A stretch of DNA of 64,000 nt. Source: Ruminococcus flavefaciens (lineage in GTDB: Bacteria > Bacillota > Clostridia > Oscillospirales > Ruminococcaceae). Location: contig JAMPIL010000006.1 in assembly GCA_023662725.1 (NCBI GenBank), positions 1-64,000 on the forward strand, read 5' to 3'. How positions within the stretch are numbered: position 1 is the first letter of the stretch; each line of letters begins with the position of its first letter. Below the pieces are notes generated by a model that was not told where the DNA came from, searched no databases, and was given only the letters and a program-made list of their open reading frames with translations. Of the stretch, positions 18,903 through 36,977 are shown in pieces. The position numbers and the translations under genes were made by a program.

Positions 18903-18930
18903 TCTTCATAAGAGTTAGTGAGTTGATTTT

Positions 18931-20010
18931 ATGTCAGAATTAATGGAATATCAGTGTCCATGCTGTTCAGCAAAACTTGAATTCAATACAGGAACGCAGA
19001 ACATGAGATGTCCTTATTGTGATTCTGAATTTGATATCAATGCGGTTGTACAGCATGATAGTGAAATTGCTTCAGAAAATGAAGAAATGAAATGGGACAC
19101 CAACGCAGGAGATCAGTGGAACGAGTCGGAACTCTCCGGAATGAGCGTATACTCCTGCAAATCATGCGGAGCCGAAATAATGACCGATTCCACAACTGCG
19201 GCATCAAAATGTCCTTACTGCGACAGTCCGATAGTTATGGCAGGAAGTTTTGCAGGCGATCTTAAACCAGATTACGTCATTCCGTTCAAGCTTGATAAAG
19301 AAGCTGCAAAAGCTGCGCTGAATCGTTATTTGGATGGAAAAATACTTCTGCCGAAGGTGTTCCGTGAGGAAAATCACATTGATGAGATCAAAGGCGTTTA
19401 CGTTCCGGTATGGCTCTTCAATGCCGAAGCAGACGCCAGAATGTCATTTAAAGCTGAAAAAAGAAGAACTTGGAACGATAATTCATATAATTATATCGAA
19501 ACCAGTACATATTCGGCTTATCGTTCGGGTAAAGTTGCTTTTGAACTGGTTCCAGTCGACGGTTCTGAAAAAATGGACGATGATCTTATGGAATCTATAG
19601 AACCTTATAATTTTAAGGAAGCAGTGGATTTTAATACTGCTTATCTTTCAGGTTATCTTGCTGACCGCTATGATGTTTCAGCCGAGCAAAGTATAGGAAA
19701 AGCTAACGATAGAATACGAAAGAGTGCGGAGGACGTATTTAAAGAGACTGTTACCGGATATAGTTCTGTTCTGATAGAAAAGAGCAATATTAAGTTAAAT
19801 AACGGTAAGGCAAAGTATGCCCTTTATCCCGTATGGCTTCTTAACACAACATGGAACGGAGAAAAATACACATTTGCAATGAACGGTCAGACCGGAAAAT
19901 TTGTAGGGAATCTTCCTGTTGATAAAGCAAAAGCTGCAAAATGGTTTGGTGCGATAACGGTTATCGGAACCGCTGTAGTGTACGCATTATCGTATTTTCT
20001 CGGACTTTAA
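18931..20010 (+). CDS. Zinc-ribbon membrane-anchored partner protein
   Basis: The 359-residue product begins with two zinc-ribbon units: QCPCCSAKLEFNTGTQNMRC with PYCDSEF (about 8-34) and SCKSCGAEIMTDSTTAASKC with PYC (about 75-97). A long beta-rich domain follows (about 115-325). A single hydrophobic helix (about 337-357) closes the protein, so the bulk faces the cytoplasm. This is the usual partner of the SPFH/zinc-ribbon protein encoded 28 bp upstream. Its biochemical role is unknown; some databases mislabel the group as PriA-like because of the zinc ribbons, but no helicase motif is present. Confidence 0.82.
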   Translation: MSELMEYQCPCCSAKLEFNTGTQNMRCPYCDSEFDINAVVQHDSEIASENEEMKWDTNAGDQWNESELSGMSVYSCKSCGAEIMTDSTTAASKCPYCDSPIVMAGSFAGDLKPDYVIPFKLDKEAAKAALNRYLDGKILLPKVFREENHIDEIKGVYVPVWLFNAEADARMSFKAEKRRTWNDNSYNYIETSTYSAYRSGKVAFELVPVDGSEKMDDDLMESIEPYNFKEAVDFNTAYLSGYLADRYDVSAEQSIGKANDRIRKSAEDVFKETVTGYSSVLIEKSNIKLNNGKAKYALYPVWLLNTTWNGEKYTFAMNGQTGKFVGNLPVDKAKAAKWFGAITVIGTAVVYALSYFLGL

Positions 20011-20037
20011 TAAATTAAAGGTGGGTTCGGTTCTGAT

Positions 20038-20241
20038 ATGAATATTCTTATTTCTTTAGTAATTGCTATTATAATTGCTGCGATTGTCGTTAGATGTATG
20101 ATCTCTCAGTTGAAAACAGTAAGGCACAAAGCTGGGGCTTCTGATTATAAGAAGCAGGATAGCTTCAGGTTAGACGAAAGAAGAGATACTTTTCTCTATA
20201 AACGGGTAACTAAAACTCCGATAAACGACAATAAAAAATGA
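20038..20241 (+). CDS. Short protein resembling only the tail of TPM-domain partners
   Basis: The 67-residue product has one N-terminal transmembrane helix (ILISLVIAIIIAAIVVRCMI) and a basic tail containing KTVRHKAGASDYKKQDSF and RDTFLYKRVTKT. That tail matches the C-terminal end of the TPM-domain membrane proteins that usually complete this operon, but the extracytoplasmic TPM domain is missing. So this looks like a reduced version that keeps only the anchor and cytoplasmic tail. GGTGGG precedes the ATG, and a terminator follows at once. Whether the short form is functional is unknown. Confidence 0.65.
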   Translation: MNILISLVIAIIIAAIVVRCMISQLKTVRHKAGASDYKKQDSFRLDERRDTFLYKRVTKTPINDNKK

Positions 20242-20244
20242 AAA

Positions 20245-20280
20245 AACTGCTGCACGTTTAAGTGCAGCAGTTAATTTTTT
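20245..20280. terminator. Strong bidirectional terminator
   Basis: AACTGCTGCAC (20245-20255) pairs with GTGCAGCAGTT (20262-20272), followed by TTTTTT, with A-runs on the other side. It separates the SPFH operon from the convergent pectate lyase gene. Confidence 0.9.
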
Positions 20281-20281
20281 C

Positions 20282-23158
20282 TTATTTACTGTAAACAATT
20301 TTTATAATTTCTTTTCTGAGAAGAACCATATCAAAAACGTCAACAGCTCCGTCTTTGTTCATATCACCGATCTCGAACTGTTTGCGTGTGAATTTCTCAG
20401 TTCCAAGCAGATACTTCTGAAGAAGAACTATATCGGCAATGTTAATTTTTCCATCAAGTGAAAGATCTCCGGACGGATTAACAGGAGTAGGTTCAGTAGT
20501 AGTAGTTGTCGTAACAGTAGTAGTTGTTGAAGTTGTCGTGGTGGTAGTATTGGTTGTTGTATAAGTTTCTGCGATCCAGTTCTGGCATGATACACCGTTA
20601 AGCTCCCACTGCCTTACATTTGCTCCGGCAGACGAACTTGCATCCGCAACTTCAATTCCCTTTGTATAACGTCCGGTCGATTTATCATAAGAAGTTCTTG
20701 TGACAATGCAGTATGAACCGTCAGGATTCTTGACAAATCTCATCATCTGAGTATTTGAAGATGAATTTCTTGCCGAGATTTCAGCGTTTCCGTTATTGAT
20801 ATTCACATATCTGCTGCCTGCAAGATCAGAAACGATATAATAAAGATCACCGGTAGCTGATTTAAGAGTCCATGAATTCCAATCGCCTGAATTATTTTCT
20901 CCTGAACCGTTTGCACCCCATTGCTGAACGTTTGCGCCGTCCTCATCTTTACCTTCTGCGACTTCCATGTAGAGACCGGATGCAGCATTTTTGAACATAT
21001 AATGAACTGTTGTATCCATTTTCTCGCCTGAAAATTCAACTTCTTCAAATGTCCAGTTCTGGCAGGATGAACCTGTTTTTTCCCACAGTTGACAGTTTGC
21101 GCCGGAAGCAGTTGAAGCGCTTTCAATTTCAACAAATACATTTCCTCCGCCGACTTTGGGAATGATTTTGAAAGTTCCGTCAGAATTTGCAGCAATCATA
21201 AATTTCTGATTATCATTTCCTTTGTAGCTATAAAGAGCAATATTTGTACCATTTGTACTTTTACTGCCGCTAACGTCCATAACATAGGTTTTGTCTCCGG
21301 TCATTGACTGAATATAGTAATAACCGTCGCCAGCCGGAACAAATCTCCATGTATTCTGGATTCCTGCTTCAGATGCACCCCATTGCTGGATATTTGTTCC
21401 GTCTGCGCCTTTACCTCCGTCAACATCAAGATAAAGACCGCTGTTGGCATTTTTTATCATGAAATAGGTGTCAATAGCAATCTCGGCTGCCGTAACACCC
21501 CAGCTTTCTTCGGGAGCTTTCATAAATGTTGCTGACGGAACTCCTGCATTTTTGTACGAGCTATATTTTTCCGTGTTATTAGAGGATTGTGCACCGCTGT
21601 ATGTTGTGCAGTGACTTTTCGCTTCCGATGCGGAAAGTGCAGTATAATTGTAGTTTTTGTTCGGACGCCATGAACAGTTTTGCGCATTTCCCTCAATGGT
21701 TGTCCTGTTGCATTTTGAAAATTGCGAGCCTGATTCTGCATACGAACCGGGATAAGTTACTGTATTCCAGTCGCAGATGACGTTGCCGCCATTTGCATAA
21801 TAACAGTTTTCAGCAAAAATCTTCGAAGCAGTATGAACAGTATATGCCATGCTGAATGTATCTACATAATTGTTAAGCGAATGGAAATAACCATATCGCA
21901 TAAGACCTGGTCCTCTTGTCAGCGTTTTCTGAAAACGGTTGCTTACCAGAGACATTCGTGGGAAATTGTTGTAGGTTTTATAGGAGTTATCATCATCTGC
22001 CGGATAGCCAAGTATAAGTCCATATTCATGTAAACCAAACGAAGAGTCTGATACAGTACAGTAATCTGCATCATAGCAGCATGCCAGGAATTTATCCCAA
22101 TCCTCAAGTCCTGTTGAAGCAGTGTTATAATCGGAATGACCTGTGAAAGTACAATGATCTACCCAAAGATTCTTACCTGATCCGAAATAAACAACGATAG
22201 AGTCGTTTCCGTTTGATTCAGAATCGTGTTGAAGCTCAAAGTTTTTAATTATCAAATTGTTGCCAACACCGTTTTGGGTAGACGTACAGAACTGTACATT
22301 ATAAAGCGTATGAGCGGAGTAACTTCCGATTATAGTTTTATTGTTGTGGACGTATATTCTTCCATCCGGACAGTAATAGCGTCCTGATGAATCTTTTTTC
22401 AAACTTGTACCCTTGATATCGGCAGTAACAACGATCGTATACGGAGTATCGGAGGTTGCATATTTTTTCAGTTCGTCAAACGTTGAAACTTCAACTGTTT
22501 CTCCCAATACACCACCTATATCAGATGCCTTTATGTTTCCGGTATTGTCATCGAAGCAATATCCTGCAAACCCCTGCAAACCGGCACAGTTGAGAAGCCA
22601 TTTCTGACTGTTGGAACCATTATAATTCGATATGGAGATTACGGAGTTACCGGCTGTAAGAGCCAGCGAGGAATTGGAATAGTTCACGATTTTATAGTGC
22701 AGATCATTGCCGTGCTTATCCTGAGAAACCGGAATAATATACCAATACTGAGACTTATCGTTTTCGTTGCCATAGATAACAGTTTCCGTACCGTTTGAAA
22801 CAGAATAAGCATACGGCGTAAGAAGCCGTCCCGAAGCAGCATTGACTATTTTATAGTAATTTCCATTTGAGTTTGCACCGCAGTAATCAATGCGCCACTG
22901 CTCATTGAGCGTGCCGTTTTCAGACGCAAGAGAAGCAGAAGTTTTATCTGCTGTTGATGAAACGGTAAGATTTTTTGAATCATCGTAGAGAGCGATATTC
23001 ATAAGCTGCGGAGCGTAATCCTTTGAAAGAGCAGCATTTGTTTCGATAGGATTTCCGATACTGCTGAAATCAGCCGTAATTAAAACTGTTACCATAATTG
23101 CAAAAGCAGTTAATACTGACAACAACCTTTTGGTGAATCTTTTTGTCAAAATAATCAT
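20282..23158 (-). CDS. Secreted PL1 pectate lyase with ricin-type modules and dockerin
   Basis: The 958-residue protein has a signal peptide (about 1-43). A ricin-type beta-trefoil/CBM13-like module follows (about 45-200). Then comes a family 1 polysaccharide lyase domain (about 220-520) with NKTIIGSYSAHTLYNVQF, the KNLWVDHCTFTGHSD box and RGPGLMRYGYFHSLNNYVDT, in the Pel/Amb-type beta-helix. Two more ricin-type modules follow (about 565-705 and 720-860), with repeated NxWRF/QxW patterns. A Thr-rich linker leads to a dockerin (about 893-955: GDLSLDGKINIADIVLLQKY and GDMNKDGAVDVFDMVLLRKE). It should cleave pectate by beta-elimination as a cellulosome subunit. AAAGGA precedes the ATG. Confidence 0.92.
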   Translation of the reverse strand: MIILTKRFTKRLLSVLTAFAIMVTVLITADFSSIGNPIETNAALSKDYAPQLMNIALYDDSKNLTVSSTADKTSASLASENGTLNEQWRIDYCGANSNGNYYKIVNAASGRLLTPYAYSVSNGTETVIYGNENDKSQYWYIIPVSQDKHGNDLHYKIVNYSNSSLALTAGNSVISISNYNGSNSQKWLLNCAGLQGFAGYCFDDNTGNIKASDIGGVLGETVEVSTFDELKKYATSDTPYTIVVTADIKGTSLKKDSSGRYYCPDGRIYVHNNKTIIGSYSAHTLYNVQFCTSTQNGVGNNLIIKNFELQHDSESNGNDSIVVYFGSGKNLWVDHCTFTGHSDYNTASTGLEDWDKFLACCYDADYCTVSDSSFGLHEYGLILGYPADDDNSYKTYNNFPRMSLVSNRFQKTLTRGPGLMRYGYFHSLNNYVDTFSMAYTVHTASKIFAENCYYANGGNVICDWNTVTYPGSYAESGSQFSKCNRTTIEGNAQNCSWRPNKNYNYTALSASEAKSHCTTYSGAQSSNNTEKYSSYKNAGVPSATFMKAPEESWGVTAAEIAIDTYFMIKNANSGLYLDVDGGKGADGTNIQQWGASEAGIQNTWRFVPAGDGYYYIQSMTGDKTYVMDVSGSKSTNGTNIALYSYKGNDNQKFMIAANSDGTFKIIPKVGGGNVFVEIESASTASGANCQLWEKTGSSCQNWTFEEVEFSGEKMDTTVHYMFKNAASGLYMEVAEGKDEDGANVQQWGANGSGENNSGDWNSWTLKSATGDLYYIVSDLAGSRYVNINNGNAEISARNSSSNTQMMRFVKNPDGSYCIVTRTSYDKSTGRYTKGIEVADASSSAGANVRQWELNGVSCQNWIAETYTTTNTTTTTTSTTTTVTTTTTTEPTPVNPSGDLSLDGKINIADIVLLQKYLLGTEKFTRKQFEIGDMNKDGAVDVFDMVLLRKEIIKIVYSK

Positions 23159-23387: not shown

Positions 23388-25820
23388 TTATTTGGATAAG
23401 TTATTTAAGATAACCTTTCTGAGTAAAGCATTATCAAAAGCGTCGACATTATTGTCGGAATCCATATCTGCTTTTACGAACTGACTATAGGAAAAAGTTT
23501 CATCTTTGAGTAGATATTTCTGTAAAAGAACGAGATCTGCAATATTAGTTTTTCCGTCATTGTTTATATCGCCTTTTTCCATGCCGATAACTTCGAGCAG
23601 ATCGCAGACATCAACTGATTTTACAATACCGGATGAACTTGTAATGTCAACAGAATACATTCCCACGCTGTTTTCGTCCGCATCAATAATGTATTCTGAA
23701 GAAGCAGCATTTTCGATCGCCTTTCCGTTAAGATACCACTGATACGATACATTTTCCAACGGCGTTTCTACATTTATTGAGTATTTATCGCCCTTAGCAA
23801 GTCTGATATCTGTTTTGGACGTATAAACCCTGAAATCGGACGGAGCGATACATTCTTCTGATCTTACATCTCCGAGATTTTTCCATTCATTTGCGCTGTC
23901 CTGTAAGAATACTCTTACAGCTTTAAGCTTCGTACCGGGATAAATATCCATTGTAGAACCGAACGGTATCTTGAATTCGACCGTATCTCCGTTCCATTTA
24001 CACATACATCCGTCATAAGAACCATTATTGAAATAAACGTAACCGTTAGACATATAATACATCCAGTAGGCCCTGTCTGTTTCGGCATTTTCAATTCTCA
24101 GATTGTAAACCGGAGAAGATGCCTGTGCCGGAATAATTCCCTTAATATAAAAGAAACTGTCATCTGCTGTCATATAAACCTTGTTTCCGTCATTTTCGGC
24201 AATGAGCATATCCTCTGTCCACTCCTGAGGGAAAGAATCCGTACCGTCCACAATAGTTTGTCCGCCTACAGTATACATTTTATTGGAAGAGCCGATTCCG
24301 CTTCTTAAATAATTATCTGTACCGTGATTTTTGGTTTCGGAAACGGTGAATGTTCCGAGGTAATTTGCTCCGATAGCGGCATTCCAGACATTTTCGTTTG
24401 CAAATCTTACGGAACGAAGATTCATCTGGTCGATAGAATTATTTCCTTCAGAAAGCTTAAGATATGCGTTCCATTCGCCAATCGGGAAGCTGTCCGGCAG
24501 CTTGACAGAAATATTCTCATCTGCCACAGTACATGAACGCCAGCTGTTTGAATTGATATCCACTTCAGTTTTCATGTATATTCCGTCACGTTCAAGAACA
24601 AGTTCAGCTTTCTGTTTTGGAATAGGATTAGCGAATCCAGTATTTTCTACCTTAAAATGAACATCAAGATTTCCACCCTGAGCGACTGTATCAGAAAGCT
24701 CGGATTTTCTGTAAACAAAACGATAGCCTATATGGTCACGGATAAACTGAAAAACTGTTTGACCATAATAAGCAGAATGATCGAATGTAGACTCAAGGTT
24801 ATCAGAATCATAGAAAGGCTGATATTTCACCTCAGTTATATCATTTGATGCGTCGAAAGTATAGTCTTTATAAAGCTGATAAATATTTGCATTGATATAG
24901 CTCAAGTGAGTATTATACATTTCAGTTATTGCGTTTTCAGGAAGATATGTATCATATTTTTTAGCCCAGTCGAGATTACCTGAAAATTCTCCGCCGAAAT
25001 AGGAAGTTACCGTCTGATTTCCGAGCCATGTCGTTTCGATCTCACGGTTTGCATAAGTTCCGAGATCCGAATCGCTTCCCATATATCCGTCGTCATAAAG
25101 ACCTACACGGGCAGCGTCAGAATTCGGTTCGAATTGATAATCGGCAAGCTTATTACGTTCGATTCCAACCCATTTTGCGAAAATATCCGGAGTTCTGACT
25201 GTAACAGGAATCGGTGCGGGAACGCATTTCAGCAGAGCGTCAAGAACCTGAGCTTTATAGTCTACAGACGTATATTTTCCGCCGTGCTGTTCACCCCATT
25301 TACCTACAAATCCGCTTTCAACAAAGGCGATGATATCCTTATATTCTTCAAGAATACCGCTTTCCTTTACCTGATCTATGTGCTTAAGTACCCAATCAAA
25401 AGTTGATGGTTCAGGATTATCATTTCCGTTTGCGTCATATCTGAAACGCAAAGCAATCATGCATCCGTTTTTACGGCAGTTATCAAAGGTCGTTCTCCAT
25501 GCGGTAAAAAACTCTTCATCCAGATCATAATCGGTATCAGAGCCGTTTGAGCCGCTCGAAAAAGCTCCTATATCAATAAAAAACAGCGTAATATTACCGG
25601 TTGGATTATACGTTGGAGTATTGCCCGGTTTACATACCGCCCATATAGTCTGAGTATATCCTGCTCCGGGATTATTGATTGTTTCAACAGTTTCCTGATA
25701 CGAAATACCGCTGTCCTTCATTGTAGGCTGTTCAGCATTAACGTAAGGTACAGTTATACCGGAAATAGCTGAGCATGAAATCACAACAGACAAAACTGTT
25801 GGTAAAATGTGAAATTTCAA
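23388..25820 (-). CDS. Secreted DUF4874/DUF4832 protein with dockerin
   Basis: The start is the TTG at 25820: AAGGAG lies 8 nt before it and the frame then opens with a clean signal peptide (MKFHILPTVLSVVISCSAIS, ending near NA, about residue 30); the longer ATG frame has no such features. The 810-residue product has NNPGAGYTQTIW and FFIDIGAFS (DUF4874-like, about 50-215), then a DUF4832-like domain (about 220-530), a beta-sandwich region, an Ig-like region (about 665-740) and a C-terminal dockerin (GDINNDGKTNIADLVLLQKY and ADMDSDNNVDAFDNALLRKV). The DUF pair is found in secreted carbohydrate-related proteins and resembles a TIM-barrel hydrolase, but its substrate is unproven. The dockerin argues for a plant-wall-degrading role. 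Confidence 0.85.
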   Translation of the reverse strand: MKFHILPTVLSVVISCSAISGITVPYVNAEQPTMKDSGISYQETVETINNPGAGYTQTIWAVCKPGNTPTYNPTGNITLFFIDIGAFSSGSNGSDTDYDLDEEFFTAWRTTFDNCRKNGCMIALRFRYDANGNDNPEPSTFDWVLKHIDQVKESGILEEYKDIIAFVESGFVGKWGEQHGGKYTSVDYKAQVLDALLKCVPAPIPVTVRTPDIFAKWVGIERNKLADYQFEPNSDAARVGLYDDGYMGSDSDLGTYANREIETTWLGNQTVTSYFGGEFSGNLDWAKKYDTYLPENAITEMYNTHLSYINANIYQLYKDYTFDASNDITEVKYQPFYDSDNLESTFDHSAYYGQTVFQFIRDHIGYRFVYRKSELSDTVAQGGNLDVHFKVENTGFANPIPKQKAELVLERDGIYMKTEVDINSNSWRSCTVADENISVKLPDSFPIGEWNAYLKLSEGNNSIDQMNLRSVRFANENVWNAAIGANYLGTFTVSETKNHGTDNYLRSGIGSSNKMYTVGGQTIVDGTDSFPQEWTEDMLIAENDGNKVYMTADDSFFYIKGIIPAQASSPVYNLRIENAETDRAYWMYYMSNGYVYFNNGSYDGCMCKWNGDTVEFKIPFGSTMDIYPGTKLKAVRVFLQDSANEWKNLGDVRSEECIAPSDFRVYTSKTDIRLAKGDKYSINVETPLENVSYQWYLNGKAIENAASSEYIIDADENSVGMYSVDITSSSGIVKSVDVCDLLEVIGMEKGDINNDGKTNIADLVLLQKYLLKDETFSYSQFVKADMDSDNNVDAFDNALLRKVILNNLSK

Positions 25821-25938
25821 AAAATCACTCCTTAATAAAAATATACATAATCGCAGGCGAATTGAGAAAATATCAAAACCTACTCTTGTAACAATTATAT
25901 CACAAATTCTTACTAATTTCAAGACTTTTTAGTAATAT

Positions 25939-27114
25939 TTACTTGAAAATAAGATTTCTCCATTCTTTCACCCTGTTTTTCATTTCATCTATACCAAGAA
26001 TGCCGTAAGCAAATCCCTTTTTAACAAGTTCAATGGGAAGAAATTCATCATATTTTTCAAAAAGCGGAACTTCTCCGGCATAAACAAGATCTAATGGATC
26101 AAATTCAATTTCCGCTTCTTCAGCAAGAATGCGGAAAAAATCTTCTGGTGAAGTCTTCATTGTAAATTGGATGTAATAAGGTCTCGAAGAATCCATTCCT
26201 TTAAGACCAAGACGACCGGCGCATTTAATTTTCAGAAAACGTTCCATTGCAAAAAATGCGTAAGTTCCAAGCCACGGAAAAAGACACCACATATTTCCGC
26301 CCATACATATAAGCGGGTTTTCGGTTATATGCGAATTCCTTGCAGTATTTCGAGCCTGTTCCAGCCTCGAAACAGCATTTTTCATAAGATATGGATATCT
26401 TTTATCTTCGATAAGAACCTCTCTCATCCTAAGAAGAATTTTTGTATTGATGTCGCCGGGACAATCACCAAAATAAGCCGGAACTTTTCCCTTGATCTGT
26501 TCGCAGTAAACGAGTCGTCTCTTGTGATCTACTTCTTCAACTATCCACACATGACCTGCTATTGCGATTTTTTCCCCAACGGGCGGCGGCATAACGATCG
26601 TTCCGAGTTCCTGCGAACCCCATCTTACGGTATATTCTTCATTCTCCTGAAAAACTGCATAAAACTTGAAAGAATTAACTATTCTTTCTCCGACAATACC
26701 GATAATAAGTCCGCCCTCGTCAGTACGCTGAATATGCTCGATTTCAAGAAGATGACGAAGAAGAATGCGGTAATCATCCTGAGTTATGCGGTGGAGGTAT
26801 TTAAGCGAAAGGACTCTTGAAGCCAGCGAAGCAGGGGATAGCTCTCCGCATGAAGCAAGAGTACTCATAGTCTGATGGTAAAGCAGACTAAACGGCAGTC
26901 TATCAAGTTTCGGCGGCTCGACCCAGCGTTCCTCAAGATAAACCTGAACAAGAGCGATTCCCTGTAAAAGCTTCCACGGAATCGTTTCCGGAAGCATACT
27001 CCTCGGTTCGGGAAGTTCCTCACGCATAACAAACCACATTTCCGGGGGAAGATCACGTCTTCCGGTTCTTCCCATTCTTTGAAGAAAGGACGAAACAGTA
27101 AACGGAGCGTCTAT
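25939..27114 (-). pseudogene. C-terminal part of a Shango-type helicase after an amber codon
   Basis: The frame continues without interruption from the codon after the TAG at 27117-27115 to its stop at 25939, 391 codons. It opens IDAPFTVSSFLQRMGRTGRR, the motif VI region that must join the N-terminal part. The remainder (winged-helix-like and Lhr-like C-terminal regions, IAGHVWIVEEVDHKRRLVYC) shows no other stop or frameshift, so the lesion looks recent. An internal ATG at 27075 exists but no ribosome site precedes it, and a product from there would lack the ATPase core. The reading as a pseudogene rests on TAG acting as a stop, as it does at 167-169. Confidence 0.85.
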
Positions 27115-28179
27115 CTAGAAAGCACGTTCAAGTCTGCCGATATCAATTCCAAGTTCCAGAGTAGCAGTCGTAACCGTTGTGAGAAAAACGTCTTCGTCTT
27201 TCATCGCAGCTTCTGCGGTTTCACGGTAAGCTGCCGAGAGATTTCCATGATGAATAAGAAATCTGTCTGGCTCACGATTAGCCTCACAATAAGATCGGAG
27301 AGTTGTTGTAACAGCTTCGCATTCTTCTCTGGAATTAACGAAAACAAGACATTTTTTTCCTTTTGTATGCTCAAAAATATAACCCATGCCTGCATCTGCG
27401 TGTTCTGGCGCTTCATCAGTCTTAATATCGAGAACAGGAAGCGCATCAGCACTCCCTTTTTCTTCTGGAGCATTCTGCTGACTGATATAGAAATGTTCCA
27501 TAGAGAGCCGCCATTTGATACCTTTGCTTTCGATTCTTGGAATGACTGTTCCTCTGCTTGTTCCTGAAGCAAGGAATTCTCCGGTCAATTCAAGATCGCC
27601 TATAGTAGCGGATAGACCGATCCTTCTCGGATTAACTCCCGCAAGCTTTGAAAGACGTTCGATAAGACATAAAGTCTGACCGCCACGATCGCCACGCATA
27701 AGAGAGTGAACCTCGTCAATGACGATAAAACGCAGGTCCCCGAAAAGTTTGGAAATTGCGGCGTGTTTTCTTATGAGAAGAGCTTCAAGGGATTCAGGAG
27801 TTATCTGTAAAATGCCCGAAGGATTCTTCATAAGCTTATTTTTGTGCGACTGCGCAACATCGCCATGCCAATGCCAAACTGGAATATCAGCTCCTTCACA
27901 AAGTTCATTGAGGCGCATGAACTGATCGTTTATAAGAGCTTTAAGCGGACCGATATAAATTGCTCCGATGCTTTTGGGCATATCCTCGGAAAAGAGAGTG
28001 AGAATCGGAAAAAACGCTGCTTCCGTCTTTCCTGAAGCAGTTGAAGCGGACAAAAGTACGTTTTCATCGGTGTTGAAAATCGCATCTCCTGCGGCTGCTT
28101 GAATCGCTCTTAGCGATTCCCAGTTATTACGGTAGATAAAATCCTGCACAAACGGTGCATAACGTTCAAAAATATTCAT
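27115..28179 (-). CDS. sngC: Shango-type DEAD/DEAH helicase, N-terminal part ending at amber
   Basis: These 354 codons encode the first RecA-like domain and most of the second of an Lhr-like superfamily 2 helicase. Visible are motif I SASTASGKTEAAFFPIL (about 43-59), the DEVH box IVIDEVHSLMRGDRGGQ (about 151-167), SAT (motif III) and VFVNSREECEAVTTTL. The region TTATLELGIDIGRLERAF runs straight into an in-frame TAG. Homologues carry glutamine or another residue there; CAG to TAG is one C-to-T change. With the two upstream genes it forms the TerB-N, ATPase, helicase set described as Shango anti-phage defence, where SngC is the helicase. Truncated here, it lacks motif VI and should be inactive unless the stop is read through. 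Confidence 0.85.
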   Translation of the reverse strand: MNIFERYAPFVQDFIYRNNWESLRAIQAAAGDAIFNTDENVLLSASTASGKTEAAFFPILTLFSEDMPKSIGAIYIGPLKALINDQFMRLNELCEGADIPVWHWHGDVAQSHKNKLMKNPSGILQITPESLEALLIRKHAAISKLFGDLRFIVIDEVHSLMRGDRGGQTLCLIERLSKLAGVNPRRIGLSATIGDLELTGEFLASGTSRGTVIPRIESKGIKWRLSMEHFYISQQNAPEEKGSADALPVLDIKTDEAPEHADAGMGYIFEHTKGKKCLVFVNSREECEAVTTTLRSYCEANREPDRFLIHHGNLSAAYRETAEAAMKDEDVFLTTVTTATLELGIDIGRLERAF

Positions 28180-28182
28180 ATC

Positions 28183-29517
28183 TTATATCTCAAACTCTGC
28201 AAATTCGGAATCGGAAGCTTCATGTTCAGTTTCCGGCTTTGAATAAACCATATTTTCGGATGCAATAAAATCGCTTATCACGATCTGAGGGTTCTGATAA
28301 ACAATATCAAGAAGCTCGATAAAATCACGGATGACCTCACGTGGGGTTATGTGAGTATCCGAGCCTATTCTTGAATATTCAACCTGAATAAAATCAATAA
28401 GATCGTTCTGAGTTATCTTCTGTTCATAGCCGAAAAGACCGGAATGAATCTCTGAAAGCTTTTCAGTAAGTACCAGCATTTCCTCATAATTAAGAGGATT
28501 AAGATGAATTACCGGGGCAAGCATATCCTTAATGCCTTCACGTCCGAAACGGCCTTCTGCAAGGCGTGAACGAAGAGCCTCATAGCTGTAAACACCTCTC
28601 CTTGTATCCTCGATACACTGCGGAGTTCCGCCCATAATTATTCCAAGATATTTCGCCTTGCCCTGGAGAGTATCGTTGTACATAGTCAGAATTTTCTCAT
28701 AATTATATTGTCTTGTAATGCTGTTGGGTATTTTGTAAATATTAACAAGTTCGTCAATAAGAATGAGCATACCGCTGTAACCAGCTTTTTTGAGGAACAT
28801 GGCGAAGAGCTTTATATACTCATACCAATCGTCATCGGATATAATAATATTGACTCCAAGTTCGGATTTAGCTTCGGTTTTATTAACGTATTCTCCTCGG
28901 AACCATTTCACTACTTTTGCCTTATTTTCATCGTTGCCATCAATGTAGGAGCGATAATAGATCGTGAGAAGCTTAGAGAAATCAAATCCATGAACCATTT
29001 CACTAAGAGAACCTACGACCTCGAATATTTTTTTCTCAACGGCTTTAGAAAATTCCGGAGAATCAGGGGAGAGCCCGGTTTCCGAAGCAGCGTCGGTCTG
29101 GATGCTGCTTATCCATCTATCGAGGATAAGAGTGAGCGCTCCGCCGTCGGGACGTGTTTTAGTTGACATATTTCTGATAAGTTCTTTATAAGTGGCAAGT
29201 CCCTGTCCCTTAGTTCCCTGTAGTCTGCGTTCGGGCGAGAGATCGGCATCGACCACAACGAAATTTTTGTCCATAACATGACTTCTTATTGTCTGAAGAA
29301 GAAAGCTTTTTCCGCTTCCGTATTTACCGACAATAAAACGGAAAGAAGCTCCTCCGTCCTCAATAATATCGATGTCATGTAACAAAGCGTCAATTTCAGT
29401 TTCACGTCCGACCGTAATGTAGGGGAGTCCTATCCTCGGAACAACTCCTCCTTTGAGCGAATTTATAACAACCGAAGCTATTCGTTTGGGTATCTTTACA
29501 GAATTTGTACTATTCAT
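28183..29517 (-). CDS. sngB: BrxD-like ATPase of the Shango-type operon
   Basis: The 444-residue protein is a P-loop ATPase of the DUF2791/BREX ATP-binding type. PYITVGRETEIDALLHDIDI precedes the Walker A motif FIVGKYGSGKSFLLQTIRSH (about 60-79). LLQTIRSHVMDKNFVVVDAD and RRLQGTKGQG follow, then the Walker B motif GMLILIDELVNIY (about 249-261). A helical C-terminal part carries RLAEGRFGREG. Its ATG overlaps the TerB-N gene stop by 4 bp and its stop is 3 bp before the helicase start, so the three are translationally linked. In Shango this ATPase is SngB; its direct partner is not established from sequence. Confidence 0.85.
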   Translation of the reverse strand: MNSTNSVKIPKRIASVVINSLKGGVVPRIGLPYITVGRETEIDALLHDIDIIEDGGASFRFIVGKYGSGKSFLLQTIRSHVMDKNFVVVDADLSPERRLQGTKGQGLATYKELIRNMSTKTRPDGGALTLILDRWISSIQTDAASETGLSPDSPEFSKAVEKKIFEVVGSLSEMVHGFDFSKLLTIYYRSYIDGNDENKAKVVKWFRGEYVNKTEAKSELGVNIIISDDDWYEYIKLFAMFLKKAGYSGMLILIDELVNIYKIPNSITRQYNYEKILTMYNDTLQGKAKYLGIIMGGTPQCIEDTRRGVYSYEALRSRLAEGRFGREGIKDMLAPVIHLNPLNYEEMLVLTEKLSEIHSGLFGYEQKITQNDLIDFIQVEYSRIGSDTHITPREVIRDFIELLDIVYQNPQIVISDFIASENMVYSKPETEHEASDSEFAEFEI

Positions 29518-31001
29518 GGTTTTATCATTCCTTTCAGTTCATCAATATAATCCCCAATAAGCTCGGGAACGTCACCCGAAAAATCTATAACGGTATCGTC
29601 GAAGAGATCGAAAAGCTTTTCATTCACAGCATCAGCCAGAATCGATGGCATTGATTTTACTGATTCTGCGATTTTTCTCCAATCTCCGCCGTAAAGGAGC
29701 GTTTTAAGGAACGCATATTCCGATATATTAAGTGGAGTATCATCCATAGCGAAGTTTTCTGAAGGATTTATCTCAGTGATTTCTTCTGATTCATCATATA
29801 CTTCCTCAACTATCAGCTTATCACGAGTGATTTCAGAAGCTTTGCGTATATCTTCAAGCTTTGAAATATCAATTTCAATTTTTTTAGTTTTTGTTTCAGA
29901 TTTTTGAATAATAATCTTATCCGCTTCCCGCTGTATGATCGAAACTGCGACTTTTGAAACGTCTTCACACTCCAATTTTTCACTATAACCGAAACGCTCA
30001 CGAAGAATGATGTCAACTGATTTCAAAAAATCTCCAATATGTTTGTTTTTTTCTTTATATGGATAACTTTCACAGCTCCACGCTCCGTTCAGACAGCTTA
30101 TACTGCGTATCTCATTTATTTTGTAACAAAAATTTCTAAAAGGAGTTCTGTCGTAAAAAACTGCCGATTCAAATATATGGTACTTTGAATTTTTCAGATT
30201 TCCGAAATAATTTGCAAAAAGACTTTTTTTTCTGTTTTCACGAAAATATTCCGAGAGCCTTTTAAAGGAATTCACGGCTGTTTTTCTGAATTTATCAGCA
30301 TGATTGGCAAAACATGATGACTCATAAATATTATAATCAGACAGATTGCAAAGTGCGTTAAAAATATCATCATCCCCGAATTTGTCCCAGTTTTTTAAAG
30401 CAATAAGCATTTCATCACGCAGTATGATCTCATTATCATGTAAAACGTCTGTATCAAGCTGATAATAAACCGCATAATCAATAAGCCATGATTCTATGAT
30501 ATGGCTGATCTCAGGGGAAAATTGTTTATACCGCATTCCGAAATCTTTTAGTTTATTAAATCCGTCAATCAAAGATTGCGTTCCGATCTCATTTATAAGT
30601 TCGTACGAATATATATAAGCATAGGGAGAACTTGTCTTGATAATTATTCCATTCCGAACTTTTGTGCGCCATGAAAAATAACCTCTAAGCTGCTGTGCAG
30701 TAAGATCACGATACGTTGTATAGAAACCGGAGAAATCAGCGTCATAATTATAATCGTCCTCGTAATCCTCCATAAATTTGCCCTGAGTATAAAAAAGCCA
30801 CGCACTTGTTTTCCAATAAGCGTCCGGCGAAAAGGCGATTTTTTTCATTTGCTCTATTTTCTCCGGAGTTTTTGGCTTACAAAGCCGGGCGGCTGTTTTC
30901 AGAATTGGCTCGTCTTTATAAACTCTGTTTTGAAAAGATTTACTATTTAACAGTTTTTCGTCCTTCATAACAACAGAAATAATTTTTTCCGGATCAGACA
31001 T
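29514..31001 (-). CDS. sngA: TerB-N domain protein of the Shango-type operon
   Basis: The 495-residue protein is the first gene of the operon. Its N-terminal half carries the TerB-N pattern: QLRGYFSWRTKVRNGIIIKT (about 103-122), then SPYAYIYSYELINEIG. The C-terminal half has a charged helical stretch and an acidic end with LNISEYAFLKTLLYGGDWRK resembling the TerB-C region. ATG 31001 is preferred over TTG 31007 because GAGGCGG lies about 9 nt away. TerB-like modules occur in tellurite resistance and in phage-defence operons and are proposed metal or membrane sensors. Here the partners make the Shango assignment (SngA) the best fit. Confidence 0.82.
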   Translation of the reverse strand: MSDPEKIISVVMKDEKLLNSKSFQNRVYKDEPILKTAARLCKPKTPEKIEQMKKIAFSPDAYWKTSAWLFYTQGKFMEDYEDDYNYDADFSGFYTTYRDLTAQQLRGYFSWRTKVRNGIIIKTSSPYAYIYSYELINEIGTQSLIDGFNKLKDFGMRYKQFSPEISHIIESWLIDYAVYYQLDTDVLHDNEIILRDEMLIALKNWDKFGDDDIFNALCNLSDYNIYESSCFANHADKFRKTAVNSFKRLSEYFRENRKKSLFANYFGNLKNSKYHIFESAVFYDRTPFRNFCYKINEIRSISCLNGAWSCESYPYKEKNKHIGDFLKSVDIILRERFGYSEKLECEDVSKVAVSIIQREADKIIIQKSETKTKKIEIDISKLEDIRKASEITRDKLIVEEVYDESEEITEINPSENFAMDDTPLNISEYAFLKTLLYGGDWRKIAESVKSMPSILADAVNEKLFDLFDDTVIDFSGDVPELIGDYIDELKGMIKP

Positions 31002-31130
31002 TTTCAAAAACCGCCTCTCTGCTCATAATATTTTAATTATAACATATGTTCTGTTTAAAGTCAATCAGTTAATTTAAGAAAATGCTTTTGTTATAAAATG
31101 GTGAAACTTTTAAAATTGATAAAATCATAC

Positions 31131-31200: not shown

Positions 31201-32007
31201 ATGGATAAAATTAATATAGGCTTTATAGGTGCAGGCAATATGGGAACTGCGATCATGAAAGGCATTGCAGGAAGTTCTGTTGCGGAAAAAACTGCCCTTT
31301 ATGCATATGATCCTGATAAAACAAAGATTGAGATGCTCTTAGAATCAGGAGTTGCGTTCTGTGAAAGCGAAACCGATCTTGTAAAAAAATGCAAGTTTGT
31401 TTTTCTTGCCGTTAAACCCCAGATAATTGAAACTGTCCTTGAAGCGGCTGCCCCTGCCGCTTCCGATGAGAATGTTTTTATCTCGATCGCTGCCGGAATA
31501 ACAGACGAGTTTATTGCAAAGAAAACTCTTCCGAATGCAAAAGTTATACTCGTTATGCCAAATACTCCGCTTCTTGTCGGAGAAGGAGCTTCTGCGCTTT
31601 CACGCAATGAAAATGTTTCTGATGAGGAATTCGAATTCATACTTAATATTTTTAAAATATGCGGAAAAGCTGCTGTTATCTCAAAAGATAAAATGAAAGA
31701 GATAATCGCAATAAACGGAAGCAGTCCAGCATTTATCTATCTTTTTGCAAAGGGATTTATTGATTATGCAACATCAGTGGGAATTGAGCAGGATGCCGCA
31801 TCCGAATTGTTTTCGCAAAGTCTTATCGGCTCGGCAAAAATGATAACCGATTCCGGATATTCTATCGACGAACTTATTAAAATGGTGTCTTCTCCGGGAG
31901 GAACAACTCTCGCCGGACTTGATCGCCTTTATGAAGGAAATCTTACTGATGTTGTGAAAAAATGCTGTGAAAGCTGTACTAAAAGAGCATACGAACTTTC
32001 AAAATAA
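31201..32007 (+). CDS. proC: Pyrroline-5-carboxylate reductase
   Basis: The start is ATG 31201, 6 nt after AAGGAGA; the longer frame adds residues with no ribosome site. The 268-residue enzyme makes L-proline from 1-pyrroline-5-carboxylate with NAD(P)H. The Rossmann motif IGFIGAGNMGTAIM is at about 5-18. VFLAVKPQ (about 66-73), VMPNTPLLVGEGASAL and the C-terminal signature MVSSPGGTTLAGLDRLYEGN (about 230-249) are all typical. Length is normal. It precedes the SpoIIM-like gene but has its own promoter. Confidence 0.95.
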   Translation: MDKINIGFIGAGNMGTAIMKGIAGSSVAEKTALYAYDPDKTKIEMLLESGVAFCESETDLVKKCKFVFLAVKPQIIETVLEAAAPAASDENVFISIAAGITDEFIAKKTLPNAKVILVMPNTPLLVGEGASALSRNENVSDEEFEFILNIFKICGKAAVISKDKMKEIIAINGSSPAFIYLFAKGFIDYATSVGIEQDAASELFSQSLIGSAKMITDSGYSIDELIKMVSSPGGTTLAGLDRLYEGNLTDVVKKCCESCTKRAYELSK

Positions 32008-32066
32008 TAAACGGTTCTATTAGTACAAGCTTCTGCATATCCTTGAAAAAGAAAGGATGATGCAGA

Positions 32067-32654
32067 ATGAAGCACATAAGTTATATTGGAAATCGCAGCA
32101 GAAAAACGTCTATAATACTGCTGAGCATACTTGTAATTATAGGAATCATAACCGGTTCTATTTATCAGACGGTAAAAATGCCAGAGCCTTCTTATTGGCT
32201 TCACCAATATTTTGCCCCGGTATTCAAAGGAATAAATTTGTTTGAATATATGCGCGGCGGAATTTTTATTTCAATAGCATTCACAGCTGTAGTTTTCTTG
32301 CTGGGTTTTTTTGCTTTCGGACAACCTTTCGGTATTGCGCTTCTTGTTTACAGAGGATTCGGAATAGGCGCTTCAGCCGCTTTGATGTATACTCTTTACG
32401 GTGGAAAAGCTTTTGTATTGATTCTTATAACCGTTCTTCCGAAAGCAGCAGCTCTTACGTTTATTGCGGTTCTTGCAGTAAGAGAACTTATAAGAGCTTC
32501 AGTCTTTTCGCTTTCCTGCTGGATCTCAGAAAACGGAAATGATAGTAAACGTATGAGTATACAGCTTTACTGTCTGAAATTTATTGTGCTTGCTGTAATG
32601 GTAATTATCGTCGCTGCCGTAGATGCAGGGATCAATTTTGCGTTTGCAGGATAA
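32067..32654 (+). CDS. SpoIIM-family membrane protein
   Basis: The 195-residue integral membrane protein has about five hydrophobic helices. Family-typical segments are FLLGFFAFGQPFGIALLVYR (about 77-96), GFGIGASAALMYTLYGGKAF and the C-terminal FIVLAVMVIIVAAVDAGINF. This matches stage II sporulation protein M, which in sporulating Firmicutes works with SpoIID and SpoIIP in peptidoglycan remodelling during engulfment. No SpoIID/P lies nearby, so a general membrane role is also possible. GAAAGGATG precedes the ATG. Confidence 0.8.
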   Translation: MKHISYIGNRSRKTSIILLSILVIIGIITGSIYQTVKMPEPSYWLHQYFAPVFKGINLFEYMRGGIFISIAFTAVVFLLGFFAFGQPFGIALLVYRGFGIGASAALMYTLYGGKAFVLILITVLPKAAALTFIAVLAVRELIRASVFSLSCWISENGNDSKRMSIQLYCLKFIVLAVMVIIVAAVDAGINFAFAG

Positions 32655-32682
32655 AATTTTTAAAATTGGAGGAATTCAAAAA

Positions 32683-33600
32683 TTGGCTTTATTTGATTAT
32701 GAAAGCGCCGGTCCAGGAATATCAAAACACGCTCCGAAGAAAACAGGAATACGTCTGTTTTTTGATATTTTTTTCAGGAAATTTTGGCAGCTTATGGAAG
32801 TAAATCTTATATACTTTTTGTTCTTTATTCCGCTTATGCTGATTTTAGGAGTTATAAGCGTCTTCAGCGATTACAAATTAATACTTATTCTATCAGGATT
32901 GCTTCTTTTACTGTTCGCTGTTACCATAGGACCTGCTACGGCAGGCATGACAAAAATAATGCGATGTTATATAACCGGAAAGCATACATTTGTAATAAGA
33001 GATTTTTTTCGTTCATTCAAGAATAATTTTAAAAAAGCAGCTTTAGTAGGGTTTCTTGACTGTCTGGTCATCGCTTCGGTAATTGCGTCTATAAAGGTTT
33101 ATCCTTGGATGGCCGAACTTTACAATGCCAAAATCATGTATCTTCCTATGACTATTGCGCTGAGCGTTGCGCTTGTTATCCTAATGATGAATTATTATAT
33201 TTTTCTGATGCTTACAGCAACCAATCTTTCACTAAAAAATCTTATAAAAAATTCTTTTGCTCTCGCTTTTGTAGCAATGAAAAGTAATGTCATCATTTTA
33301 TTAGTAACGATAGCGGTTATAGCAGGAATGCTTCTTATATTCAATTACGCTTTTCCGGTATTTATGCTTCTTCTTCCGTTTTTTCCGGCAGCGTTCCTTT
33401 GCTTTGTGACCTGTTTCAACAGTTATCCTGTAATTCAAAAATATGTAATAAACCCATATTATACAAGTATCGGAGAGATAAACCCCGAACTTGACGAAGC
33501 ATCCGACAAAGATGATGAAGAGGTTATTTTTGAAGATATGGGCGGTAAAGAAAAGCCAATTGAAAAGCGTAAAAAAACAAAAGGAAAAAGAATTTCATAA
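32683..33600 (+). CDS. YesL-like (DUF624) membrane protein
   Basis: The start is set at TTG 32683 because GGAGG lies 10 nt before it and the product then begins MALFDYESAGPGISKHAPKK, the usual opening of this family; the ATG at 32623 lies inside the preceding gene. The 305-residue protein has about six transmembrane helices and the characteristic FFRKFWQLMEVNLIYFLFFI (about 30-49) and GPATAGMTKIMRCYITG (about 85-101). The C-terminus is acidic and then strongly basic (KPIEKRKKTKGKRI). YesL-like proteins accompany polysaccharide-uptake genes in some Bacilli, but their function is unknown. A strong terminator follows. Confidence 0.82.
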   Translation: MALFDYESAGPGISKHAPKKTGIRLFFDIFFRKFWQLMEVNLIYFLFFIPLMLILGVISVFSDYKLILILSGLLLLLFAVTIGPATAGMTKIMRCYITGKHTFVIRDFFRSFKNNFKKAALVGFLDCLVIASVIASIKVYPWMAELYNAKIMYLPMTIALSVALVILMMNYYIFLMLTATNLSLKNLIKNSFALAFVAMKSNVIILLVTIAVIAGMLLIFNYAFPVFMLLLPFFPAAFLCFVTCFNSYPVIQKYVINPYYTSIGEINPELDEASDKDDEEVIFEDMGGKEKPIEKRKKTKGKRIS

Positions 33601-33608
33601 TTTATTTT

Positions 33609-33650
33609 GGCTGCCACAGAGAAGAAATAACTCTGTGGCAGCCTTTTTTG
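33609..33650 (+). terminator. Strong intrinsic terminator
   Basis: GGCTGCCACAGAG (33609-33621) pairs perfectly with CTCTGTGGCAGCC (33631-33643), followed by TTTTTT. Confidence 0.95.
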
Positions 33651-33699
33651 TAATAACTTAAAGAAACAATTATTTTATGAAAAAAATTTTAGAAAAGTG

Positions 33700-33728
33700 T
33701 TGACAATAGGAATTTTTTGTATTATAAT
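33700..33728 (+). promoter_or_regulatory. Consensus promoter driving a gene-free region
   Basis: TTGACA (33700-33705), 17 bp, TATAAT (33723-33728): a perfect consensus promoter. The next convincing start codon is more than 900 bp away (34644). Confidence 0.85.
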
Positions 33729-34643
33729 ATAAATAGAGATATAATAAAATTGTAGAACAATAAAAAAGGAAAACTAAACAAAACAAAAACAAAAACTAAA
33801 GTATTTATTGTTGGATAGACGTATTTGTTTTCTTTTAGTTATGATAAAATAACATAAAAATTCAGTTTATTTGTTATTCCGAGCGGTTACGGTTTGATAA
33901 TGTATCTTTCAGAAAAATATGCATACGCTTTGCAGAATCTCTGAATCATAGATGGAAACTGGAAATTTTGTGATTAGAATATTAAGCTACAAGAAAAGAT
34001 AAAACGTTTTTTATTATATTTTGTAATAATGTGATAAAAATATTCAAATTCATTACTTGTGAATGCTGTTGCATACGGTGGTTTACAGTGTTTGATTATT
34101 GGTTTGTTCTTTTTAAGATACGTCCCCGTACTGAAGGAGTCTTTATAAGGAATCCTCTAAGATAAACTCTGTTTTTATCGGATGCATTACGGTTTGTTTG
34201 AAGTGTATTGTTTTTCAGACAACAGGCTGAACGTAAAAAGTATAAAAATACTTATTTTGTAACACTGGTTGGATCTCGTTGCAAGAGAGGAACTATGTTC
34301 GTTCAAAAGAAACAGTATTTAAAGCAGTTAAATGCTTTGAAGTGCTTGTATGTTTATATGATTTTCTGTTAAGCTATGTTTGATAAGTGTACATCGCAAG
34401 TAAGTTTTCTGAACATATTGTCATGAATTTAATATAATATGAATTCAACATCGTGCTAAAGTAAAAAACAAATTATATGTGAGAACAACAAACAAATTTT
34501 CTTTCGCTGAATGCGTAAGGCTTTATTTTGCTGCGTGAAAAAATAAATACATATTTTCATAGGCACAAATAAACACAGTAACAAAGATATACAAACCGGA
34601 TAACCGGAAAAGTGCAGAACAAAACTATCGGAGGATACTAATA
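33729..34643 (+). ncRNA. Candidate long non-coding RNA or leader, about 0.9 kb
   Basis: No supported coding frame exists on either strand. The stretch starts at a perfect promoter and contains many short hairpins: TTCAG/CTGAA near 34214, AAGTAT/ATACTT near 34239, AAAGCA/TGCTTT near 34320 and CCGG-ATAA-CCGG near 34597. A partly repeated block resembling TTACGGTTTG...TGTAT...TTTCAG occurs at about 33886 and 34187. I see no intrinsic terminator inside it, so the transcript may run on into the gene at 34644 as a long 5' leader. No known RNA family is recognised by eye, and a decayed gene cannot be excluded. Confidence 0.4.
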
Positions 34644-35609
34644 ATGGCAAGACTTAAATGGGGTCGAGTCTTTGCTGCGATGTTGGTACTTTCGGGAACC
34701 ATATTTGCTGTTGACGGACTCCGAAGAGATCTTTTTAAATCAAATACAAACAGTATTACTGTTGTAGGCGATTTTGTAAACGGAAATTCTGTTGAAAAAG
34801 ATAATAGCAAGCAAATTGACGGGCAAATCCATCTTGGAAATGAGTCACAGTCAACTACCGTTTTTGAGGGCGTTCAGAACTTGGGATTTTCAGAGCTTTC
34901 AGTTACTCCCTCGCTTTTATCATCCGGTAAGCTTGTTATAATTAACGACGAATATCCTGCAGGTGAATCAACTCCTTCCGGAATGGTTAATCTGCTTAAA
35001 TATAAAAATGATTATTATAATGTTTTAAATGAATCTGTAAAGCTGAATGAAGAAGCAGCTGAGGCCCTTAATCATATGATGGCTGATTATCATGAAGCAA
35101 CAGGACTTACAGATTTTATCGTTTATGGAACAAATGATACTTTTACAGGAGATGGCTCTTGCTGCCCTGAATATTTCCCCGAATCGATAACGGGAAATAC
35201 TATCGACCTTGCTTTAAACGCTTACGGAGGCATTATTGCTTTTGATGGGTTTGATGAAGAAGGGTGGATTGTAAAAAATTGCGAAAAATATGGATACATA
35301 GTAAGATACCCTGAAGGAAAAGAGAACCAAACTGGTCATAAATTCTGCCCATGGCATCTTCGCTATGTTGGCGATGTTCATGCTGCAATTATGAGTGAAA
35401 AGGATTATTCTCTTGAAGAATATATCAACTTCCTTAAAAATTATAGTTATGACAATGTTTATTCATATATTTGCAATGGTATTGAGTATGAGATATACAC
35501 TTCATCTGCTATTGGCGACGTAGCATCTGCTCGTGTGCCTATTTCCGGAAATTATTCCGTTTCCGGAGATAACATCGGAACATACATCATTACAACTGTT
35601 AAAAACTGA
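34644..35609 (+). CDS. VanY-like protein lacking key catalytic residues
   Basis: The 321-residue protein has an N-terminal signal-anchor (about 8-24), a Ser/Asn-rich region and a C-terminal domain like VanY D,D-carboxypeptidases: LVIINDEYPAG (about 97-107), then PESITGNTIDL (179-189), YGYIVRYPEG and CPWHLRYVGD (235-244). In active VanY these are SEHxxGxAxD and EPWHxRYVG. Here the zinc-binding His is Ser181 and the catalytic Glu is Cys235, while Asp188 and His238 remain. It is therefore unlikely to hydrolyse D-Ala-D-Ala and may bind peptidoglycan without cutting it. CGGAGGA lies 10 nt before the ATG. The intact homologue at 48202 shows what is missing. Confidence 0.8.
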   Translation: MARLKWGRVFAAMLVLSGTIFAVDGLRRDLFKSNTNSITVVGDFVNGNSVEKDNSKQIDGQIHLGNESQSTTVFEGVQNLGFSELSVTPSLLSSGKLVIINDEYPAGESTPSGMVNLLKYKNDYYNVLNESVKLNEEAAEALNHMMADYHEATGLTDFIVYGTNDTFTGDGSCCPEYFPESITGNTIDLALNAYGGIIAFDGFDEEGWIVKNCEKYGYIVRYPEGKENQTGHKFCPWHLRYVGDVHAAIMSEKDYSLEEYINFLKNYSYDNVYSYICNGIEYEIYTSSAIGDVASARVPISGNYSVSGDNIGTYIITTVKN

Positions 35610-35629
35610 ACGAGTGTTAAATTGATTTC

Positions 35630-35655
35630 AGGCAGTCTGCGGACTGCCTTTTTTG
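35630..35655 (+). terminator. Intrinsic terminator
   Basis: AGGCAGTC (35630-35637), loop TGCG, GACTGCCT (35642-35649) and TTTTTT follow the VanY-like gene. Confidence 0.9.
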
Positions 35656-35703
35656 TAATATCGTAAGACTATTGTTCATATATTAGGTTGTGAGGTGATC
35701 TGT

Positions 35704-36837
35704 ATGATAAAAAAACTAATAATTGTTTTATGTCCTTTTTTGATTCTATTTTCCCTTATTTCGGCTGGAAAAAAGAATGAAGATGATACGGTGGCCTCAT
35801 CTTATATACTCATTGAATCCAACACGAAAACTGTTCTTGAGGAATACAACTCATGTAAAAGATTAAACGCCGGATATTTAAATAAGTTAATGTCTTTGCT
35901 GATTATCGCTGAAGATATTTCATCTGGTGAATATACACTTGACACTGAACTGACCGCTTCACAGTCGGTAAGTGGGATTAAGGGTTCATTGGTATGGCTT
36001 GAACCTGGGGACAAAATGAATGTTGAAGAACTTTTGAAAAGTGTTATAATTGGAAATGCCAACGATGCGCTAATCGTTCTCTCAGAACGTTCTGCCGGTT
36101 CAGCCGATGAGTTCGTTATGCATATGAACAGCCGTGCATTTGATCTTGGACTTCGTGATACAGCTTTTTTTTCGCCGTATGGTTACTATGATGAACGTGA
36201 ATATACAACAGCATATGATATAGCGATAATTTGCTCTGAATTATCAAAATACGATTTTTTGCAGCCTTATTTCAAAACCTGGAGAGATTTTGTTCGTAAC
36301 GGAACGGTTGAACTGGTAAATGAAAATACGCTTGCAAGAACTTATCAGCATCACGCCGGATTTAAAGCTGCTCATTCTGAAGAGTCAGGCTATTGCATTG
36401 CTGAATGCGGAAAAAATGAAGACGGAACAGCTTTTATTTCAGTTGTCCTTGGCGCCGAAAATGATGATGATTCTTTTAAAAAAGCAAAACAACTGATAAA
36501 TAGCGGTTTTAGTAATTATAAGGTGACTGATTCCTATTTTCCTGATGAAATGATTAAGCCAATAAGAGTAAAAAATGGCGAAGAATCCGCTGTTGAACTT
36601 ATTCTTGCCAAACAGGGAAATATTGTTGTTCCCAGGGGAACAAACTCACTTAGGATAATCTGCGTTTTCCCTGAATATCTTAATGCTCCGATAAAAAAAG
36701 AACAAAAAATCGGAACTGCAGTTTTTTATAATGGAAAAAAGATTGTTTTTGAAACTGATGTTATTGCAAAAAACGATGTAAAAAAAATTTCCTTTGGGTT
36801 TGTATTAGAAAAAATATTAGTAAATATGACAAAATAA
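35704..36837 (+). CDS. DacF/PBP5-like protein lacking all three active-site motifs
   Basis: The start is ATG 35704, 5 nt after GAGGTGAT. The 377-residue protein has an N-terminal hydrophobic segment (about 4-21) and the fold of peptidase S11 D-Ala-D-Ala carboxypeptidases, including ASSYILIESNTKTVLEEYNS, GSLVWLEPGDKMNVEELLKS and TAYDIAIICSEL, with a C-terminal beta-rich domain. The catalytic SxxK is YLNK (Tyr58, Lys61), SxN is NAN (118-120) and KTG is KAA (221-223). With the nucleophile serine gone it cannot act as a normal penicillin-binding enzyme. It may be a substrate-binding or regulatory pseudoenzyme. The last residues could form a membrane-associated helix. Confidence 0.8.
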   Translation: MIKKLIIVLCPFLILFSLISAGKKNEDDTVASSYILIESNTKTVLEEYNSCKRLNAGYLNKLMSLLIIAEDISSGEYTLDTELTASQSVSGIKGSLVWLEPGDKMNVEELLKSVIIGNANDALIVLSERSAGSADEFVMHMNSRAFDLGLRDTAFFSPYGYYDEREYTTAYDIAIICSELSKYDFLQPYFKTWRDFVRNGTVELVNENTLARTYQHHAGFKAAHSEESGYCIAECGKNEDGTAFISVVLGAENDDDSFKKAKQLINSGFSNYKVTDSYFPDEMIKPIRVKNGEESAVELILAKQGNIVVPRGTNSLRIICVFPEYLNAPIKKEQKIGTAVFYNGKKIVFETDVIAKNDVKKISFGFVLEKILVNMTK

Positions 36838-36891
36838 AACTGTTGAAAATATATCGAATGTACAAATGTTTGAATAATCTTGCAAAGGGAC

Positions 36892-36920
36892 TTGAAAAAT
36901 TTCTTAAAATATAGTATCAT
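36892..36920 (+). promoter_or_regulatory. Promoter of pgi
   Basis: TTGAAA (36892-36897), 17 bp, TATCAT (36915-36920). The -35 region and spacer (ACTTGAAAAATTTCTTAAAA) nearly repeat the pgk promoter at 58440. Confidence 0.7.
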
Positions 36921-36977
36921 AAAGATGGTAATTTATATTTGCACAGAGCAATCTGTACATATTGGAGGTAATTTTAA

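Follow-up and report, generated by a model that had tools for sequence, protein, structure and literature searches.

The Shango operon of Pseudomonas aeruginosa PA14 is reported to protect strain PAO1 (PMC10250203), and the helicase SngC, together with BrxHI, DruE and DpdJ, is placed in one potential clade of defence helicases (PMC12278908). The locus analysed here lies in a window of 64,000 nucleotides (the whole stretch of DNA that was analysed) from Ruminococcus flavefaciens; the window lies on contig C66, part of a draft assembly of 3.11 Mb with 70 contigs and 99.96% completeness. An earlier note on this DNA had recognised the composition of Shango in a TerB-N protein, a BrxD-like ATPase and a helicase, and a 4-bp overlap of the first two genes. 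Both observations held: the three proteins match the SngA, SngB and SngC models, and sngA and sngB overlap at 29514-29517 on the same strand. The features of the locus are as follows.

29514..31001, minus strand: sngA, intact, encoding a TerB_N/TerB_C protein (PADLOC SngA, 3.8e-71; Pfam TerB_N and TerB_C)
28183..29517, minus strand: sngB, intact, encoding a BrxC/BrxD-type ATPase (PADLOC SngB, 9.8e-195; Pfam BrxC_BrxD, 7.3e-171)
27118..28179, minus strand: first part of sngC, 354 codons (PADLOC SngC, 1.9e-149, profile positions 5-339; Pfam DEAD and Helicase_C)
27115..27117, minus strand: in-frame amber TAG at sngC codon 355, placed by translation and by the glutamine column in relatives
25939..27114, minus strand: second part of sngC, 391 codons and stop, with motif VI and the C-terminal half (PADLOC SngC, 2.8e-112, profile positions 355-717, scored from an internal ATG onward)
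31036..31064, minus strand: promoter-like site for the operon (TTGACT and TATAAT separated by 17 nt; 11 of 12 consensus positions)
31103..31126, plus strand: single copy of a 24-base sequence that forms an inverted repeat in the related locus L021, one copy being kept in the window

Each of the three proteins was matched best by its own Shango model in PADLOC. SngA carries TerB_N and TerB_C domains above their cut-offs, SngB is an ATPase of the BrxC/BrxD type (PF10923, which the earlier note gave under its older name DUF2791), and SngC belongs to the expected helicase family but is broken by one TAG at codon 355. The genes are arranged as a single three-gene operon on one strand, with only 3 bp between the stop of sngB and the ATG of sngC at 28179. 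sngA starts at ATG 31001 or, alternatively, at TTG 31007, and its stop ends at 29514. The promoter-like site is by itself weak evidence, because the region holds 23 such sites compared to 13.8 in shuffles. No PADLOC defence model matched any of ten neighbouring proteins (17496-23158, 23388-25922 and 31201-38312). Judged by its domain and profile matches, the locus is Shango by descent.

The sngC frame (28179-25939) consists of 354 codons, the TAG at 27117-27115, 391 codons and a final stop, with no other internal stop, and translation thus agrees with the single TAG in an otherwise open helicase frame that the earlier note had reported. A profile search of the genome that reads through stops recovered SngC as one match of 914.7 bits spanning profile positions 4-717 with one TAG inside. 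Because the 391 codons past the TAG code for the remainder of SngC, chance is not their source. A second SngC was not found in the genome, where the next match to the model had an E-value of 7.1e-20. The first part of sngC holds the helicase motifs as far as motif V, and the amber falls between motifs V and VI, inside the second RecA domain; the truncated SngC lacks motif VI and all sequence beyond it. For the uninterrupted SngC of L021, AlphaFold gave a model too poor to be of use (mean pLDDT 61.9, with residues 304-393 below 50). We consider it probable that the amber is a recent nonsense (null) allele of sngC, the last gene of a known Shango system, although the base call rests on one assembly. 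SngA and SngB, encoded intact upstream of sngC, would still be made, whereas SngC would break off at residue 354, short of motif VI in the second RecA domain and of its C-terminal half, and should be unable to turn ATP hydrolysis into movement along DNA. SngB and SngC would act as DNA motors, with SngA as a partner or sensor. On the inference that a helicase cut at this point has lost its activity, and that Shango depends on SngC, the strain most likely has a silent system.

The residue lost at codon 355 is strongly conserved. Relatives of the helicase were drawn from the best 80 of 548 matches (loci L021-L100), most of the named ones being Ruminococcus; the nearest among these 80, L021, comes from a roe-deer caecum metagenome-assembled genome and is 97% identical over the first 354 residues. 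The column aligned with codon 355 was glutamine in 79 of the 80 loci, L081 ending there, and in all 20 loci of a different collection (L001-L020), which may have genomes in common with the first. The glutamine proposed in the earlier note is therefore present in 99 of 100 loci, the contig of the remaining one ending at that place. The column was also invariant across 33 aligned SngC, and the aligned residue in the solved Lhr helicase 5v9x is likewise a glutamine, a dozen residues ahead of motif VI. In the genus, 50 of 125 genomes contained a strong SngC match (the raw tally of 121 includes other helicases), and the window's row was the only one of 47 full-length SngC rows with an internal stop. 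A search of the family gave the same result, 1 of 55 rows. In the phylum, 2 of 25 rows were flagged, the window's and that of G575, whose TAG is the natural end of the gene and was rejected as a shared amber; in the order, 2 of 93 rows were flagged, the window's and that of G1104, whose TAG is a real internal amber at another place and was rejected as a conserved one. Without repeats, the searches yielded ~209 other SngC rows (46 + 51 + 24 + 88), some of them partial, with three genus genomes with cut-up matches excluded and frameshifts invisible to the search; one of these rows had an internal stop, and none had a stop at the position of codon 355. The viral contigs contained no SngC relative and no copy of the site.

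We also observed variation among the relatives' loci. SngA was ~33-48% identical to that of the window in near-full-length matches (L023-L100) and 86% identical in L021, whereas SngB and SngC were mostly 70-90% identical across L023-L100, far above SngA; by these identities the divergence of SngA much outpaces that of the other two proteins. Seven loci (L028, L033, L064, L072, L080, L081 and L083) carry an ORF of 160-165 residues between sngB and sngC, with a P-loop-like start as judged by eye; in L064 it occupies 5338-5835 and overlaps sngB by 4 bp. Of the 74 loci where positions could be assigned to both sngB and sngC, 24 had more than 60 bases between the two genes. Two SngC-like genes adjoin on the same strand in G1014, G1153, G1166, G1176 and G1238. 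In L022, L051, L068 and L082, SngC occurs without a recognisable SngB in the 3.5 to 6 kb upstream; the tested neighbours of SngC in L022 and L082 matched no PADLOC model, and three neighbours in L068 matched such models, two MzaA-like and one reverse-transcriptase-like.

A 464-kb sample of the genome, made up of the window and 20 further stretches from which 332 ORFs were picked mechanically, contained four further genes split by one nonsense codon, two by TAG and two by TGA, with both pieces falling in the same Pfam family. These genes, taken from the list of sampled ORFs (three of them also occur in a further list), comprise two aldo/keto reductases, an McrC-like gene and a phage integrase. 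TAG splits one of the reductases and the McrC-like gene; TGA splits the integrase and the other reductase, whose short second piece scored 20.5 bits where the cut-off is 24. With sngC included, the split genes comprise three TAG, two TGA and no TAA; long frames contain 2032 CAG against 617 CAA codons, and 886 TGG, so that common transitions would yield about the observed mix of stops. A codon-usage screen listed sngC as the sole TAG case and missed the other four, and five split genes are therefore a lower bound. The split genes are probably the product of ordinary pseudogene formation, and with four others in the sample such alleles are nothing special in this genome. The two neighbouring aldo/keto reductase genes and the integrase lie at L192 3087-4976 and L201 11981-13069 (C11 of the same genome). 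The McrC-like gene, also in C11 (L201 18446-19714), could be another defence gene that has fallen silent in this genome; PADLOC did not recognise its pieces, however, and since positions 1-52 of the profile are missing from its match, the gene may carry further damage.

The main rival of a recent null allele is that the TAG is an assembly error, or the minority allele of a mixed sample, and that the gene of the strain is intact. The genome is a draft in 70 contigs, sngC is otherwise unbroken, and the locus in other respects resembles its relatives, all of which an error would fit. However, no internal stop occurred in 48 ABC-transporter matches or 12 DEAD matches from this genome, which shows that errors do not pervade the assembly, and the four other split genes fit real pseudogenes as well as they fit errors. 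We regard an error at this site as unlikely, and a recent null allele in sngC as the better account.

We compared the window with L021 to gauge the age of such an allele. dS was 0.365 and 0.502 for the two halves of sngC, and dN/dS was 0.044 and 0.061, compared to 0.050 for SngB and 0.164 for SngA, the highest of the three genes. When the majority state in the remaining relatives was used to polarise the changes in SngC, 14 fell on the window branch and 10 on that of L021, with 10 undecided. Under neutrality, a branch of ~0.22 over 1735 nonsynonymous sites would carry some 380 changes; against this, the excess of ~4 (with its error) leaves room for no more than a few per cent of it to have been neutral. 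At SngC columns conserved to at least 80%, however, the window branch carried all 8 polarised changes and the L021 branch carried none, one of the 8 affecting phenylalanine 462, which is invariant in the other rows. This tilt could reflect an older relaxation, though SngB showed a similar one (3 changes at conserved columns on the window branch and 0 on L021's). Among 76 SngC rows, the window had 1 unique departure where the mean is 0.74; at conserved columns it departed 9 times, compared to a median of 17 (L021 had 2), and by these counts its sngC is, amber aside, not unusual. Because the rest of sngC shows little decay, the alignments support a recent loss. Thus, of the three possibilities offered in the earlier note (a very recent loss, phase variation or read-through), recency stood, on the little decay elsewhere and against the tilt at conserved columns, while the other two were not supported.

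Phase variation was examined in light of an inversion. Between the window and L021, whose DNA is 91% identical, the whole operon is inverted relative to the neighbouring gene proC, and the two ends of the L021 operon carry the arms of a perfect 24-base inverted repeat (3057-3080 and 8324-8347). Were the stop a phase-variable off state of the operon, this arrangement would speak for it. The stop, however, is a substitution with no repeat at codon 355, the inverted repeat bounds the whole operon, and does so only in L021, and the window holds a single copy of the 24-base sequence; the 22-base core of the repeat occurs once in the window's genome and twice in G050, recognised from position and identity as the genome that L021 belongs to. 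Moreover, the promoter-like site lies within the inverted segment and moves along with the operon, so the inversion is no simple on-off switch. We therefore regard phase variation as extremely improbable. The left flank of the operon in L021 (about 2740-3040) is a dispersed repeat, ~300 bases long, of which the window's genome contains many partial copies (at least 66 matches to the query), and hence the inversion is likely a repeat-linked rearrangement.

Continued production of SngC across the break was considered in several forms. Read-through of codon 355, with some full-length SngC produced, would agree with the intact and conserved second half of sngC and with the presence of a glutamine tRNA whose anticodon, CTG, is near-cognate to TAG. 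Yet the TAG-suppressing tRNA that the earlier note had proposed to look for did not appear: no CTA anticodon was present among the 45 tRNA genes found, all of them typed, in a set that is incomplete (it contains no tRNA-Ile (GAT) and no tRNA-Ala (TGC), and scoring covered 150 of the 180 first-look candidates). RF1 is intact, the PylS match of 26.8 bits is below cut-off, TAG terminates 22 of the 332 sampled ORFs (the first half of sngC included), and none of the ~209 other SngC rows has a stop at this place. Read-through is accordingly a poor prospect, and little credence attaches either to a leak valve, in which near-cognate decoding at the amber would give trace full-length SngC, the cost of Shango being avoided and the system selectable back under phage attack. 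The idea that TAG is recoded arose from 37 window genes listed by hand, of which 30 end in TAA, 7 in TGA and none in TAG; it was rejected, as TAG ends ORFs in the 464-kb sample and the split genes show both TAG and TGA. Finally, an in-frame ATG at 27075, 39 nt past the amber, opens an ORF of 378 residues, and the two pieces of sngC could be separate proteins that act together following restart at this codon. The 20 nt upstream of this ATG contain no Shine-Dalgarno core, which is present in 30 of the 37 window genes, although its absence is not absolute evidence, the start of sngC itself also having none; in addition, no relative examined is split at codon 355 and the cut falls within the second RecA domain. 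Restart is hardly credible, and we retain a null allele as the explanation of the amber.

The locus thus adds one more Shango operon, probably caught with a single fresh null allele, and one internal stop in ~209 other SngC rows provides a small data point on the rate at which defence genes are lost. Profile-based counts of defence systems can, furthermore, include silent ones. In the literature searched, with subscription journals mostly outside the search, we recognised no report on nonsense alleles of Shango.

Compared with known systems, the locus has the same make-up as SngABC of PA14, a three-gene operon for a TerB-like protein, an ATPase and a DEAD/DEAH helicase (PMC10250203). It differs from PA14 Shango in that sngC is cut by one amber. 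None of the ten tested neighbours is a BREX core gene by PADLOC, and BREX proteins provide the second-best PADLOC models for two of the genes: BrxHI for sngC (262.8 compared to 497.7 bits for the Shango model) and BrxD for sngB (154.6 compared to 645.7 bits). The Lhr helicase of PDB 5v9x is distant from SngC (E 3.5e-24) and the rest of the protein aligns weakly, but its helicase core aligns with that of SngC and carries a glutamine at the place of codon 355.
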